Both the position numbers and the translations under genes were made by a program. The notes below the pieces were generated by a model, which was not told the origin of the DNA, ran no database searches, and saw only the letters and a program-made list of their open reading frames with translations. A DNA stretch of 64,000 nucleotides from an uncultured Dehalococcoidia bacterium (GTDB taxonomy: Bacteria > Chloroflexota > Dehalococcoidia > Lucifugimonadales > UBA3495), in assembly GCA_958296385.1 (NCBI GenBank), contig OY282494.1, positions 2,331,537 through 2,395,536 of the forward strand, in the 5' to 3' direction. This document shows positions 11,567 through 17,038 of the stretch, one piece after another (position 1 is the first letter of the stretch; every line of letters starts with the position of its first letter).

Positions 11567-13216
11567 CTACAAAATCCCGGCGCCGGGTTCTTTGAGCATC
11601 GCTTGCCGCAGCAGGGGGACGGGCGGCGCTCCCCAGGATAATGCGGTGTCGTGGAACCGGCGCAGCGTGTAGGCCGAACCCTCCTGCCGGCGCCAGTCGC
11701 TGCGCAGTTTGAGCAGCATCAGCTTGCCCAGCGTGTAGTTCAGATAGCCGGGGTCAAACGCCCCGCGCAGCGCCTCCCGCCGGGCCGGGTGTTCCTCCAT
11801 ATAAGCGTGCGCCTGGAAAAACCGGGCGGCCTCGTCCATCGTCATCCCCTGCGTGTGCATCCCCAGCGAACACAAATACCGGCAGTTCCGCACCAGCGCC
11901 TCCAGCAGCTGCGTCAGCCGCAGCGCCGCATCGCCCCGCCCATACTCCGTCTCCAGCATCATCTCCTCGGCGTAATGCGCCCAACCCTCGCTGAACGCAT
12001 ACGACGTTGCCACGCGGTTGATGAGGGGCAGCGGCGCGCCGTAGCGGTTGTGCAGGTTGTGGACGTAATGCCCCGGATACACCTCGTGGATGCTGACCAC
12101 TTTGAGGGTGCGGTAGTTGAAATTGGACAGCCACTCGGCCTGCTGCTGCGGCGTCCAGTGCGGTTCCACCGGCGTTACGTAGTAAAACGCCTCCGTAGCC
12201 ACCGATTCCAACCCGCCCGGCGAGTCCATTGCGGCGAAAGCGTAGCGCATATAAGACGGCGTTTCAGTAACCTGGCACCGCTCCGCCGACGGCAGGCCGA
12301 CAATATCAAAGTCAATCAGAGCTTGCCGGATTTCCTCCAGCATATCCCGCACGTCCGGGATTAAGCCGTCCGCCGTCGGATGATTGGCGGCGACTTGCGC
12401 CACCGCCTCGCGCACCGACTTGCCGGGAGCGACTATTGACGCCGCCTCATCCAGCCGGCGCAGGTTCTCATCCAGATTGGCCTGCCCGATGGAAAGTACG
12501 TCGTTCAGAGCTGTAGCCACGCCCTCGCCAACCGCCAGCATCCGCCCGTAGAGCGCAGAGCCGATGGCGAACTCCGGGCGGACGGCGCGGGATTCCAGAC
12601 GGCTGGCAAAGGCGTCCACCGCCTGGGCCGCCGCGTCCCGGCGGGCGTCAAAATCGGCGGCAACATCGGGAGCGACGGCGGCGCACTCGGCCGACGCCGC
12701 AGCCAGCCCCGTCCGGTAGTAAGAGGCCATACCCCGGTAAGCCTCCACCGCCATATCCCGCACCGGCGCGCCCAACTCCGGCGCGGTAGCGGCATCCAGC
12801 GTGGCCAGAAAATCGGGCGCCTGGGCCAACGCGGCGGACGCCGAACGCAGCCGCTCCGGTAAAGGCGCATAATCCCGCTGCACATACCCGCTAACGCCCA
12901 AATACCCCACCTGCCGCAGCGGGTTATCCTCCAGCGTCCGCATTTCCTCCAGATTGAACAACTCCCGCCGCAAGAACAATTCCAGCAGACTGCGCGACAA
13001 CCCGGCCATCCGGTCGTCATCGGTTTCGCCCGGCAACGCAGAAAGATGGCCCAAAGATTGATGCAGCTCCGCAACACGCCGCCGCACCCGCCCGTCGGAG
13101 AAATCCGGCAGCCGCCCATCATACTCATGCCGCCCGATACGGCTGCCGGCAGTAGGCAGAAAATCCCAATGCTGGGCAACGGCGCGCTCCGCCAAAGCGT
13201 TGACTGCGTGGTTCAT
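11567..13216 (-). CDS. DUF885 family metallopeptidase
   Basis: The 549-residue protein carries HEVYPGHYVHNLHN, a HExxxGH zinc site, followed by FSEGWAHYAEEM, which supplies the downstream glutamate; both are the hallmark of DUF885. Members are presumed peptidases of a thermolysin-like fold, mostly uncharacterised. No signal peptide is evident, so it is probably cytoplasmic. The gene converges on the PIG-L gene and lies just downstream of the helicase gene on the same strand (74-base gap). The start is ATG 13216. Confidence 0.85.
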   Translation of the reverse strand: MNHAVNALAERAVAQHWDFLPTAGSRIGRHEYDGRLPDFSDGRVRRRVAELHQSLGHLSALPGETDDDRMAGLSRSLLELFLRRELFNLEEMRTLEDNPLRQVGYLGVSGYVQRDYAPLPERLRSASAALAQAPDFLATLDAATAPELGAPVRDMAVEAYRGMASYYRTGLAAASAECAAVAPDVAADFDARRDAAAQAVDAFASRLESRAVRPEFAIGSALYGRMLAVGEGVATALNDVLSIGQANLDENLRRLDEAASIVAPGKSVREAVAQVAANHPTADGLIPDVRDMLEEIRQALIDFDIVGLPSAERCQVTETPSYMRYAFAAMDSPGGLESVATEAFYYVTPVEPHWTPQQQAEWLSNFNYRTLKVVSIHEVYPGHYVHNLHNRYGAPLPLINRVATSYAFSEGWAHYAEEMMLETEYGRGDAALRLTQLLEALVRNCRYLCSLGMHTQGMTMDEAARFFQAHAYMEEHPARREALRGAFDPGYLNYTLGKLMLLKLRSDWRRQEGSAYTLRRFHDTALSWGAPPVPLLRQAMLKEPGAGIL

Positions 13217-13290
13217 TGCGATGCCACCTGTTTAAAATTTTTGCCGGAATGTCGGATGCACGCAATGAGCGAGCGGGCCTGGCGAAAGTC

Positions 13291-16200
13291 TTACTGGGCT
13301 GGCACTACTTCAATACGGCCCAAGGATTTCAGCGCCCAATCGACATGCGGAAAGCGGTATTTTTCTACTTCGGCGATGCGACGCCGGCGTGCCTCGGCCA
13401 AATTTGCTAACACTGCTTCGGCCTGTTGTAAATTGGCCTCCCAAACGGGCAAAATCCGACGCTGCGTTTCGTCATCGCTGGCGTGCAGGCGTGCCAGCGT
13501 GGCCCGGGTAGATTCCACTTTGTCGCTGGCTCCGCGCTCCTTGTAGTCGAACAAAGATGCGAGCCGGGAAACTTCCCGGTCTGTCCTTTCGCCGGCCTCA
13601 TCTTGCGCTCGCCGCTGCATCTTTTCGCTTTCCAGACTGGCAAACTGTTCTGCTAAACGATGAGCCTCATGCAGTAGATGGGTGGGAATCTCATCCACAT
13701 TAATACTCTCTTCGTTCTTATCGAACTGGAAAGCCCGCTCTACAATGCGGCGTCCAATTGCCACGTCAATCTCGCCGTGGTCGTTCACGAAAACCGGCAC
13801 AATGTTTTCCGCAGGACGGATACCGGAAACGGTGAGCTGGTAAGTGAACAGCCAGCCGGTAGTTGGGGGCAAATCACTGTCCGAACCAAGACGCCGAGCA
13901 CCGATTACCCCTTCGTACTCTTCGTCAAGCACTTGGGCCACGATAGCATCAATAACCTTATGACCGAAGGCTAGGAACTCTACGTTCTGGGCGTCCGGGC
14001 GGGCGTCCGGACGGAAAACCGCCTGCATTTTCTGGCCTGTTGGAAAAAGCTGCCGGCGGTTCTTGTCATAGAACCCTCCGTGGAAAGTCAGTTCATACTT
14101 GCTGCCATCCTGCCTGATATAAGTGGACACGTCGCTGAGCAATTGACCGATGAACCGCTCAAAGTCATCGGTGCTGATGGGAGAGGGCTGCCCGATGATG
14201 CGCTCGGCAATTTCCCGGCGGAAGGACTTGGTGTCCATAATGAAGTCCCCCAGCAAGTCGCCAGCCTCCCGGGCATTGTTGATTTCAGCCTCAATTTTGT
14301 TACCGAATTCGTCCAAAGCGGCGGCGCGTTGCTCCTCGGCCCGGCGCATAATTTTCCCCAGGTCGCTTTCCGTCTCGCCCAGGATGGGATCGAGACCACC
14401 GACGGTTTCCTCAAAAACTCTGATGCGGTGTTCCAGGACATCAAGGACGCGCGCCTCAACTGTGTCCTTAACCCACAGGTTGAAGATACTGATGGCTTGC
14501 TCCTGCCCGATACGGTCAACCCGGCCGATACGCTGTTCAACGCGCATGGGATTCCATGGCAAGTCGTAATTGACCAGCAGATGGCAGAATTGCAGGTTCC
14601 GTCCCTCGCCCCCCGCTTCAGTACTGACCAGCACCTGCGGCCCTGCGTCGTTCCTGAAACGTTCAATGGCGCGGTCTTTTTCCTGAGCTCCCATCTGCCC
14701 GTGGAAAAGATTAACTCCCCAGCCCTTAACTGACAGTAACTCTTCCAGATGGCGTTGCGTCTCACGAAACTGTGTGAACACAATCACCTTCTCATCAGGA
14801 CGTTCGCGAAGCAGTTCGTCGAGTTGGGCAAGGAACACTTGCGCTTTGGAATCGTACTCCACCTTAGAGAGGGCTGAGATGGCGCGGTCGAGAAGTTGGA
14901 TTTCCCTGCCAGCCAAGTCAGTTCCGTCCGTGCCCACCGAGCCGACCACATCACTGGCGTCGTCATCGCCATCCAGTCTGTCCGTAAGAGTATCGAGGGG
15001 TTCAGTATCCGCAACGCTGGCAGTAGCCAGAACTTTCTCGCGACGCCGGCCCAGAGATTCCTTTATGGCGGCAATGCTGGATGCCATCAGCTTCTGGAAA
15101 GTGACCATAACAAAGCCTATGGCATTGTTATTGCCGCCTTCCGCCAACTGATAGCCGTACTGAACGTACTCTTCAACCGCTTGCAAAGCCTCCTGCTCTA
15201 GTGGTGTCAACTCTACTTCCCATCGATATGCGGAACGCGGCATAAACCCGCCGACCACTGCCTTGCGGTTTCGGATAAGCACTTCGCTGAGCCGATGCTT
15301 ATCCCCTAGTTCCTTGATGATTTCGTCCAGTAGTTCAGAGTTGTCGTTGCCGGCTTGCAATCGCTGATAAGCCTCTACCAGTTCAGTATCCAGCCATTCT
15401 GCGACCCGCTCAGCAGTTTCAACGGGGGGCTCGTCCGGCACCGGGAACCCGCCCATTTCCAGTTGCTCTACCAGTTTGGAAAGGCCGGGCATTGCGCGTC
15501 GATGCCGCTCGAAGTCATCGGGAGAAGCGAACAGAGCAGGGTCCAGAATCTCCACGAGAGAGTAAAGTTCATGGGTATTCAGCTGCATTGGCGTTGCCGT
15601 GAGAAACAACATACCGCGTCGCTGCATTTGTTCTGCCGGTGAAAGGTCACGCACCAGCCGATACAATCGGGTACTGCCACCGTCAGGATGCCGGCGCGCA
15701 TGGTGAGCTTCATCAATGATGACCAAGTCCCAATCCATTTGTGCGCACTCGCTTGCAACTTCAGGGCGCTCTACCCAACTCGCAGAGCACAACACACTGT
15801 CGGAATATTCGGGATGTGCGAAGGGATTGCTGTTATAGCCCTGGTTTCTAAGGTGACGAACCGTCTGCGTATTCAGTACGGCGAAACTTTCGTTGAATTT
15901 CGTTTTCATCTCAAATTGCCACTGACTAACCAGGTTAGGGGGTACGATGGCCAGCACGCGCAAGCCTGGGTCCCGGGCCCGCAACTCTTTGAGTATCATC
16001 CCAGCCTCAATAGTTTTCCCCAGGCCAACCTCGTCACAGAGCAGGAAACGGTGCGGATAGTTGGAAATCACCCGATGCACAACCGACACCTGGTGCGGCT
16101 TGATGTCCACTTGCGCTTGTCCCAATGATACTAGATCGTTGTGCAAGTGTTGCATCCGATACCACCGGGTTACCTCTTGCAAGCGGTATTTTTGCAACTG

Positions 16201-16569
16201 GCCAATCTTTCCGTCATGGAAACGCTCAACCGGATCGGTCACCGGAAAGGGCCTCAGGTCTGCTTCCGGGACATTGGTAGTTGCCACACCACCACTTGCC
16301 TTAATGACTTGGCAACGCCAAGTGGGCGTCTCCCCTCCCACCTGGTGTATTATGCTAGCGGTTTCCCCCGTCGATCGTCGTTGCGCGACTTTCCCGGTAA
16401 GGTCCACTCGCAGCAGCACCTCAGGAGTCGCAAACTGAGTAGGATTATCCACGTTGTCATCCCAACGGACGATAATCCTGTCACCCATTTCTGTGACTAT
16501 TCCATATCCTTTCTCAGACTCCCATTGCACCAAAGCGCCGCGCATGAGATTCGTTTGATTGTCTGGCAT
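13291..16569 (-). CDS. SNF2/RapA-type ATP-dependent helicase, probable defence gene
   Basis: This 1092-residue superfamily 2 ATPase has an N-terminal KOW/Tudor-like region (1-60), then LLCDEVGLGKTIEAGMIL (Walker A at 182-186), VIIDEAHHARR (motif II at 286-289), LFLTATPMQLN (motif III), VLVSTEAGGEGRNLQ and QRIGRVDRIGQE (motif VI). This is the HepA/RapA arrangement also found in phage-defence helicases such as DISARM DrmD. The gene is visibly poorer in GC than its neighbours, suggesting transfer. No DISARM partner is nearby, so it acts alone or with genes elsewhere. A palindrome lies upstream. A housekeeping RapA role is the alternative. Confidence 0.85.
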   Translation of the reverse strand: MPDNQTNLMRGALVQWESEKGYGIVTEMGDRIIVRWDDNVDNPTQFATPEVLLRVDLTGKVAQRRSTGETASIIHQVGGETPTWRCQVIKASGGVATTNVPEADLRPFPVTDPVERFHDGKIGQLQKYRLQEVTRWYRMQHLHNDLVSLGQAQVDIKPHQVSVVHRVISNYPHRFLLCDEVGLGKTIEAGMILKELRARDPGLRVLAIVPPNLVSQWQFEMKTKFNESFAVLNTQTVRHLRNQGYNSNPFAHPEYSDSVLCSASWVERPEVASECAQMDWDLVIIDEAHHARRHPDGGSTRLYRLVRDLSPAEQMQRRGMLFLTATPMQLNTHELYSLVEILDPALFASPDDFERHRRAMPGLSKLVEQLEMGGFPVPDEPPVETAERVAEWLDTELVEAYQRLQAGNDNSELLDEIIKELGDKHRLSEVLIRNRKAVVGGFMPRSAYRWEVELTPLEQEALQAVEEYVQYGYQLAEGGNNNAIGFVMVTFQKLMASSIAAIKESLGRRREKVLATASVADTEPLDTLTDRLDGDDDASDVVGSVGTDGTDLAGREIQLLDRAISALSKVEYDSKAQVFLAQLDELLRERPDEKVIVFTQFRETQRHLEELLSVKGWGVNLFHGQMGAQEKDRAIERFRNDAGPQVLVSTEAGGEGRNLQFCHLLVNYDLPWNPMRVEQRIGRVDRIGQEQAISIFNLWVKDTVEARVLDVLEHRIRVFEETVGGLDPILGETESDLGKIMRRAEEQRAAALDEFGNKIEAEINNAREAGDLLGDFIMDTKSFRREIAERIIGQPSPISTDDFERFIGQLLSDVSTYIRQDGSKYELTFHGGFYDKNRRQLFPTGQKMQAVFRPDARPDAQNVEFLAFGHKVIDAIVAQVLDEEYEGVIGARRLGSDSDLPPTTGWLFTYQLTVSGIRPAENIVPVFVNDHGEIDVAIGRRIVERAFQFDKNEESINVDEIPTHLLHEAHRLAEQFASLESEKMQRRAQDEAGERTDREVSRLASLFDYKERGASDKVESTRATLARLHASDDETQRRILPVWEANLQQAEAVLANLAEARRRRIAEVEKYRFPHVDWALKSLGRIEVVPAQ

Positions 16570-16610
16570 GATAGTCCCGCCCTTTTTGCGTAAGATTTAC
16601 GAGCTAGCCA

Positions 16611-16640
16611 ATTGTAGCTCGCTACACTAGTGTAGCGAGC
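16611..16640 (-). promoter_or_regulatory. 24-bp perfect palindrome and -10 element before the helicase gene
   Basis: Positions 16617-16640 are a perfect 24-bp palindrome with half-site GCTCGCTACACT. Directly next to it, on the helicase strand, is TACAAT (16616-16611), a good -10 element; the palindrome would occupy the spacer and -35 region. The predicted start site leaves about 40 bases before the ATG at 16569. This layout suggests a repressor site; no regulator gene is adjacent. Confidence 0.65.
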
Positions 16641-16693
16641 CGCTCAAGCGCCGTGCAATGCTGAGAGGGCAACCGTTAGGGCTGCCCCGGCCG

Positions 16694-17008
16694 CTAGGCT
16701 ACCAGTTCGCTGATGAGGAATTTGGGCTCGATTTCGGTGAAGTTTTTTACGTCGCCGACCAGTTCTCGGCCGTGAGTTTTGAAGCCCTCGTGCACGCCGT
16801 CAACGTCGTTAAAGAGCAGGTAGCCGACGGCTACGTACAGCGGCGGCGCGTTGGGGTCGGTGTCGGATATGCCTTTCTCCACGTTGTAGTACCGCATCCC
16901 GAAAGGCGTCAGCCGTTCCTGCACCAGCGGCATATGCGTGTTCACGTAGTAATCCAAGTCAAACGACTTGCCTTCCTCGTTGCCGTAAAAGACGGTTACT
17001 TTAATCAT
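16694..17008 (-). CDS. EthD family protein
   Basis: This 104-residue protein begins MIKVTVFYGNEEGKSFDLDYYVNTHMPLV in meaning, with the YYxxxHMPLV segment of EthD-like dimeric alpha/beta barrels. Members act as small isomerases or accessory proteins in degradation pathways. ATG 17008 is preceded by AGGAG at 17018-17022; the GTG at 17017 would leave no room for that site. It lies 30 bases downstream of the SDR gene and is probably co-transcribed with it. Confidence 0.85.
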   Translation of the reverse strand: MIKVTVFYGNEEGKSFDLDYYVNTHMPLVQERLTPFGMRYYNVEKGISDTDPNAPPLYVAVGYLLFNDVDGVHEGFKTHGRELVGDVKNFTEIEPKFLISELVA

Positions 17009-17038
17009 CTGATGCACTCCTTGTCCGGTATTGCTGGT

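Follow-up and report, generated by a model that had tools for sequence, protein, structure and literature searches.

A solitary SNF2 helicase of RapA architecture in a Dehalococcoidia bacterium, a probable horizontal acquisition with a candidate role against mobile elements

The window that we analysed, 64,000 nucleotides long (contig OY282494.1 of an uncultured Dehalococcoidia bacterium, positions 2,331,537 to 2,395,536 of the forward strand), carries a single gene for an SNF2 helicase/translocase of RapA architecture. Comparing sequences across genomes, we lean towards reading it as a horizontally acquired, stand-alone gene from a rare lineage associated with DISARM, probably one directed against mobile elements. 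Its repeated arrival as a single gene, its intact motor and its scattered distribution suggest that it works alone, and a role in defence is favoured because several members of its lineage have DISARM-type neighbours. Both this role and the translocation of the protein along DNA are putative.

The gene occupies 13291..16569 on the minus strand and is one uninterrupted reading frame of 1092 codons. Its product has an N-terminal domain (residues 1-112; 16234..16569, minus strand), an SNF2 motor core (residues ~155-720; 14410..16107, minus strand) delimited by Pfam and motif comparison, and a C-terminal region (residues ~773-1092; 13294..14253, minus strand) placed with the structural model and a Pfam RapA_C match below its cut-off. 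The SNF2-rel_dom and Helicase_C matches exceed the Pfam cut-offs, and no nuclease domain was recognised by Pfam. The motor is intact: motifs I (EVGLGKT, 180), II (DEAH, 286), III (LTATP, 323), V (EAGGEGRN, 651) and VI (EQRIGR, 678) are identical in all eight sequences compared. Between the window and its relative L032, 28%, 21% and 60% of codon positions 1, 2 and 3 differ (1081 codons). Judging by the invariant motifs and by the divergence being strongest at third positions, the helicase is a maintained protein with a purifying pattern and no decay.

Searches against PADLOC and NCBIfam returned models of BrxHI/HII, DrmD, RapA and DpdE for this protein, with NCBIfam scores far under the curated cut-offs, and the nearest solved structure by sequence is RapA. 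We also noticed that the PADLOC model PDLC02500, described as BrxHI, matches RapA-like helicases best; excerpts of PMC12839542 present BrxHI as Ski2-like and BrxHII as RapA-like, and the label of the model may be swapped or mixed. The model of the whole protein was poor (pLDDT 52.7), hence only the N-terminal domain was used in fold searches. Modelled alone with AlphaFold2, residues 1-112 gave two tandem small five-stranded beta-barrels (pLDDT 79, pTM 0.70), like NTD-A and NTD-B of RapA. Foldseek placed RapA at rank 1 (E 8.5e-4), and VIA-align superposed 100 residues on RapA 8t0l_F with Z 10.8, rmsd 2.6 and 11% identity, the runner-up among the families listed reaching Z 7.9 over 60 residues. 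The N-terminal fold is thus predicted to be RapA-like. In the C-terminal region a low-confidence model shows long helices at 963-1072.

The order of genes in the window, with names assigned by eye from translations, is L10, L7/L12, SDR, EthD-like, helicase and DUF885-like, and the immediate neighbours of the helicase lie at 11567-13216 and 16694-17017. We compared the interval from the DUF885-like to the EthD-like gene (13217..16693) across loci of the same genus. The DUF885-like gene was found in 11 of the 12 same-genus genomes searched (E <= 1e-50), and all 11 loci fetched have the same block of genes without the helicase. The initial annotation had described an insertion between housekeeping genes and proposed to look for the empty site in relatives, which is what these 11 loci hold. 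None of the 13 same-genus genomes has an orthologue, the best match reaching 30% identity (E 1.3e-76). Vertical inheritance, and with it the presence of the gene at the same site in relatives, is clearly ruled out by this lack of orthologues and by the 11 junctions.

The EthD-DUF885 junction is a turnover point in the genus, because the gap holds differing DNA in five of the 11 loci. In these it is filled by 0.9-3.1 kb of other DNA, and in the other six it measures 5-103 bp. G009 carries a Uma2 endonuclease there, and G006 the truncated C-terminal part of a UvrD protein; three further frames in the gaps of G010 and G004 have no Pfam match. The gap of G003 holds an N6/N4 methylase after an uncharacterised frame of 250 residues (L057:5153-8120), and the two are perhaps a restriction-modification pair. 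The 7-bp repeats that border the insert of the window are within chance.

Full-length orthologues of the helicase (55-64% identity) are rare and scattered across phyla. In a scan of genome_contigs covering 84,980 species, where 76 stretches in total matched a search pattern, six loci had relatives, five of them full-length (55-63% identity) and one partial (49%). Searches of whole genomes, with thresholds that differ between searches and with the centre genome of each search included in the counts, gave matches in 6 of 400 genomes of the phylum (E <= 1e-120), 3 of 393 of the class (1e-100), 1 of 244 in the order of the genome with L034 (1e-100), and 2 of 386 and 1 of 388 in two other phyla (1e-110). 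No relative was confirmed in 2.9 million viral contigs. An origin in phages or plasmids was considered and rejected: the top-listed plasmid match is only 29% identical, and all 100 matches in phage records are below 60% identity, none reaching 80% query coverage.

The gene stands alone at other places too, namely L032, L035 and L036 in the clade of the window and G649 in its sister clade. No DISARM genes were found near L032, L035 and L036 across 10 kb upstream and 0.8-10 kb downstream, nor beside G649 in flanks of 7-8.5 kb per side. Two of these copies show how the gene may have arrived. Relative to G310, of the same genus, L032 has some 3.54 kb of extra DNA that starts 80 bp past a tRNA-Phe, has 8-bp direct repeats at its ends and contains the helicase as its only gene; G310 had no match in the search of the phylum (its membership of that set of 400 genomes is inferred). 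The genes flanking the helicase in L036 are adjacent in 8 of 10 relatives, separated by less than 300 bp in six and by ~0.5 and 1.1 kb in two, and the helicase is at this junction in none of the 10, within 1.5 kb on each side. With the window this makes three independent insertion sites. Given the rarity of the gene, the carriers probably gained it, rather than their relatives having lost it.

None of nine proteins flanking the helicase in the window, L032, L033, L035, L036 and G649 has a PADLOC match (the gene upstream of L032 was not among the nine). The enrichment in defence islands that the initial annotation proposed to look for was thus not found around the solitary copies, and a recognised defence island is rejected there. 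In L035 a pentapeptide-repeat protein with a TIR domain (L035:8448-9728) is encoded 272 bp from the solitary helicase, in divergent orientation. In L033, a contig of 6.2 kb, a ParE toxin adjoins the helicase, and the status of this copy as solitary is not confident. L037 reaches a contig edge. Elsewhere, G437 has two RapA-like helicase genes in tandem (L076:3369-10671), and a relative in G116 adjoins genes resembling type III restriction-modification (by eye) and a PDC-S68 protein (L075:1563-13382).

Composition agrees in part with the claim that the gene is unlike its neighbours. Against 111 ORFs of at least 400 aa in ~460 kb of the same genome, the helicase gene has GC 0.550 and GC3 0.603, for means of 0.644 and 0.761, and on GC as on GC3 only one other ORF among the 111 is as low. 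The gene is indeed AT-richer, and in 8 of 8 relatives compared it is also lower in G+C than its own flanks, by 0.011 to 0.120. Yet its departure in codon usage is ordinary (rank 45 of 111), and normal codon usage is one of the two findings that the initial annotation named as counting against its proposal.

As initially annotated, a perfect palindrome of 24 bp precedes the helicase; we place it between the start of the gene and the EthD-like gene (16617..16640), 47 bp before the ATG. With up to one mismatch allowed, its 14-bp core has a single occurrence in the whole genome of 3.3 Mb, and in a genome sample of 398 kb the perfect palindromes reach 18 bp at most. The palindrome is unusual, yet not beyond chance, because 2 of 60 simulated windows have one of at least 24 bp. 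Its proposed use as a control site overlapping the promoter found no support: a sigma-70 scan gave no promoter, and no counterpart, as a conserved operator would have, is present upstream of the five full-length orthologues (L032-L036) or of L078. By eye there is a TACAAT just after the palindrome, lacking a -35. An intrinsic terminator is also rejected, since the scan found none and the RNA folding predicted there is unexceptional (z -1.61).

The initial annotation guessed at a link with DISARM and remarked that no partner is present at this place. The link holds for the lineage, not for the window. In three genomes DrmA-DrmB adjoin a member of the lineage. In G049, SNF2, DrmA and DrmB follow in a row; in G062 a Vsr-like gene (by eye) and then a cytosine methylase come before SNF2, DrmA and DrmB. 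In L034 a cytosine methylase is fused in frame to the C-terminal half of DrmA (521-2707), followed by DrmB, NERD-UvrD and the helicase; the joint might be a deletion, a natural fusion or an assembly fault. We searched DrmA and DrmB under 16 handles, two of which are apparently the same genome; five of the 16 matched and the positive controls were found. At E <= 0.001 neither protein was found in the complete genome of the window, so the remark is correct for DISARM, nor in the genomes of L032, L033, L035, L036 and L037. No DNA methylase adjoins the window helicase, whose DUF885-like and EthD-like neighbours have no PADLOC match, to Dpd models or any other.

In a tree of 24 rows, reference DrmDs among them, the window groups with L032, L033, L034, L035 and L036 (100/100) and then with L037 (100/99) in a clade of seven, the sister of which comprises G049, G062 and the solitary G649 (100/100). 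The reference DrmDs (Deinococcus, Sphingomonas, G001 and G010) group together in another clade, far from these. Solitary and DISARM-linked copies are intermixed, L034 falling in the clade of the window and G649 in its sister. Since the two states are mixed, several branches are long and the order within the clade of the window is loose, the tree does not settle the direction of change between them.

Other DISARM operons came to light in these searches. Two genomes of the same genus, G001 and G010, have class 1 DISARM with DrmA, DrmB, DrmC and a methylase, together with an SNF2 subunit that differs from the one in the window (27% identity; L086:4264-17540 and L087:568-13813). In L074 and L078 the SNF2 subunit of DISARM-type operons falls under the NCBIfam cut-off for DrmD, so that annotation would miss it. 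The genome of the window has a second SNF2 helicase, of 958 aa and GC 0.54 (G000:C1:3045052-3054288, L088:53-9289), with an uncharacterised gene of 271 aa ahead of it and a UvrD-PD-(D/E)XK protein of 911 aa nearby; this looks like another AT-rich locus of defence type.

How could the gene act? For RapA, excerpts of PMC8501970 report that the N-terminal domain restrains the motor until RNA polymerase opens it, and also that deleting this domain raised activity only slightly. By analogy, the pair of N-terminal barrels in the window helicase might restrain its motor, which would be released on meeting invading DNA, or the transcription or replication machinery working on the invader. The SNF2 core would then use ATP to travel along double-stranded DNA and strip or block the proteins on it, and the invader would be neither expressed nor copied. 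As no nuclease domain was recognised, any cutting would be left to nucleases of the host. A bolder version, which we hold as a tentative idea and rather doubt, is that of a nuclease-free, single-protein immune motor of RapA architecture that, having split from DISARM-type operons, travels between phyla as a one-gene cassette and silences invading DNA by displacing RNA polymerase or replication proteins, with no cutting involved.

The initial annotation left the choice between a single-gene defence system and the remains of one. Of these, we favour a self-sufficient single gene, intact, under selection and moving alone, for which defence is the probable role. A functionless remnant, the SNF2 subunit left behind after loss of DrmA, DrmB and methylase from a DISARM-type operon, might be suspected from the neighbours of the lineage members in G049, G062 and L034, and from the joint in L034, where a deletion seems to have crossed the operon. 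Yet every full-length copy is intact with a purifying pattern, six carriers retain no trace of DrmA or DrmB at E <= 0.001, and a relic would not re-insert alone at unrelated sites, so that we regard this as the most improbable of the readings. Slightly less improbable, to our mind, is a gene that is solitary by location only and works with an unlinked methylase or nuclease partner elsewhere in the genome. The SNF2 subunits of DISARM, type 3 BREX and ARMADA do belong to multi-gene systems, according to excerpts of PMC12839542 and PMC12458937, but DrmA and DrmB are absent genome-wide and the gene was transferred alone at the L036 and L032 sites.

The third reading, unlikely as well if a little less so, is a RapA-like factor for recycling of RNA polymerase or for transcription, spread by transfer and foreign to defence. 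RapA itself is a transcription factor, and a housekeeping-like role is possible by analogy. RapA is the closest solved structure, the N-terminal fold matches its tandem barrels well above the next rows, and the NCBIfam model of RapA (NF003426) scores 351 bits. However, this score is under the cut-off of 576, RapA_C (PF12137) reaches 21.9 for a Pfam cut-off of 26.8, and the pattern of presence and absence and the DISARM-type neighbours are unlike those of a housekeeping factor. Against defence itself would speak the solitary copies outside recognised defence islands and the viral contigs, with their lack of a confirmed relative.

Our literature search, which drew on excerpts of papers, turned up no paper that describes a RapA-like helicase of this lineage standing alone. 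In such excerpts, SNF2 motors are parts of DISARM, type 3 BREX and ARMADA (PMC12839542, PMC12458937), a cyanobacterium has drmD and drmMII in the absence of a complete DISARM (PMC9716671), and the interplay of DrmD with the DISARM core complex awaits study (PMC9142583). A lineage whose motor travels alone would allow testing the motor without its partners. If protective alone, it would reveal defence by translocation in a protein with no recognised nuclease; if not, it would point to a hidden partner.

We also compared the window helicase with known systems. Hna is encoded by one gene, a helicase-nuclease. Both it and the window helicase are thus one gene with a helicase motor, but no nuclease domain was recognised in the latter; excerpts of PMC13381803 describe Hna as a single-system defence that degrades DNA. 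BrxHII of type 3 BREX, RapA-like with a Tudor-SNF2-C-terminal layout in excerpts of PMC12839542, resembles the window helicase in this layout, yet it carries a single Tudor domain and is accompanied by BREX partners, whereas the latter has two predicted barrels and is adjoined by no recognised partner (no BREX core gene among the two flanking genes). RapA (HepA) shares with it the tandem barrels, as predicted, the SNF2 core and, in a low-confidence model, a C-terminal region of long helices, but a housekeeping gene would be common to relatives and this gene is not. DrmD of class 1 DISARM (NF038317) is also an SNF2 protein, matching residues 152-1075 with 346.1 bits for a cut-off of 610, which L078, L074 and L034 miss too. 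A further parallel is within the lineage. Whereas the genome of the window has neither DrmA nor DrmB, the SNF2 proteins of G049 and G062, both of the phylum Chloroflexota, and of L034, from a Gammaproteobacterium MAG, adjoin both; these proteins belong by the tree to the lineage of the window helicase, with 44-57% identity, similar length and the same motifs.
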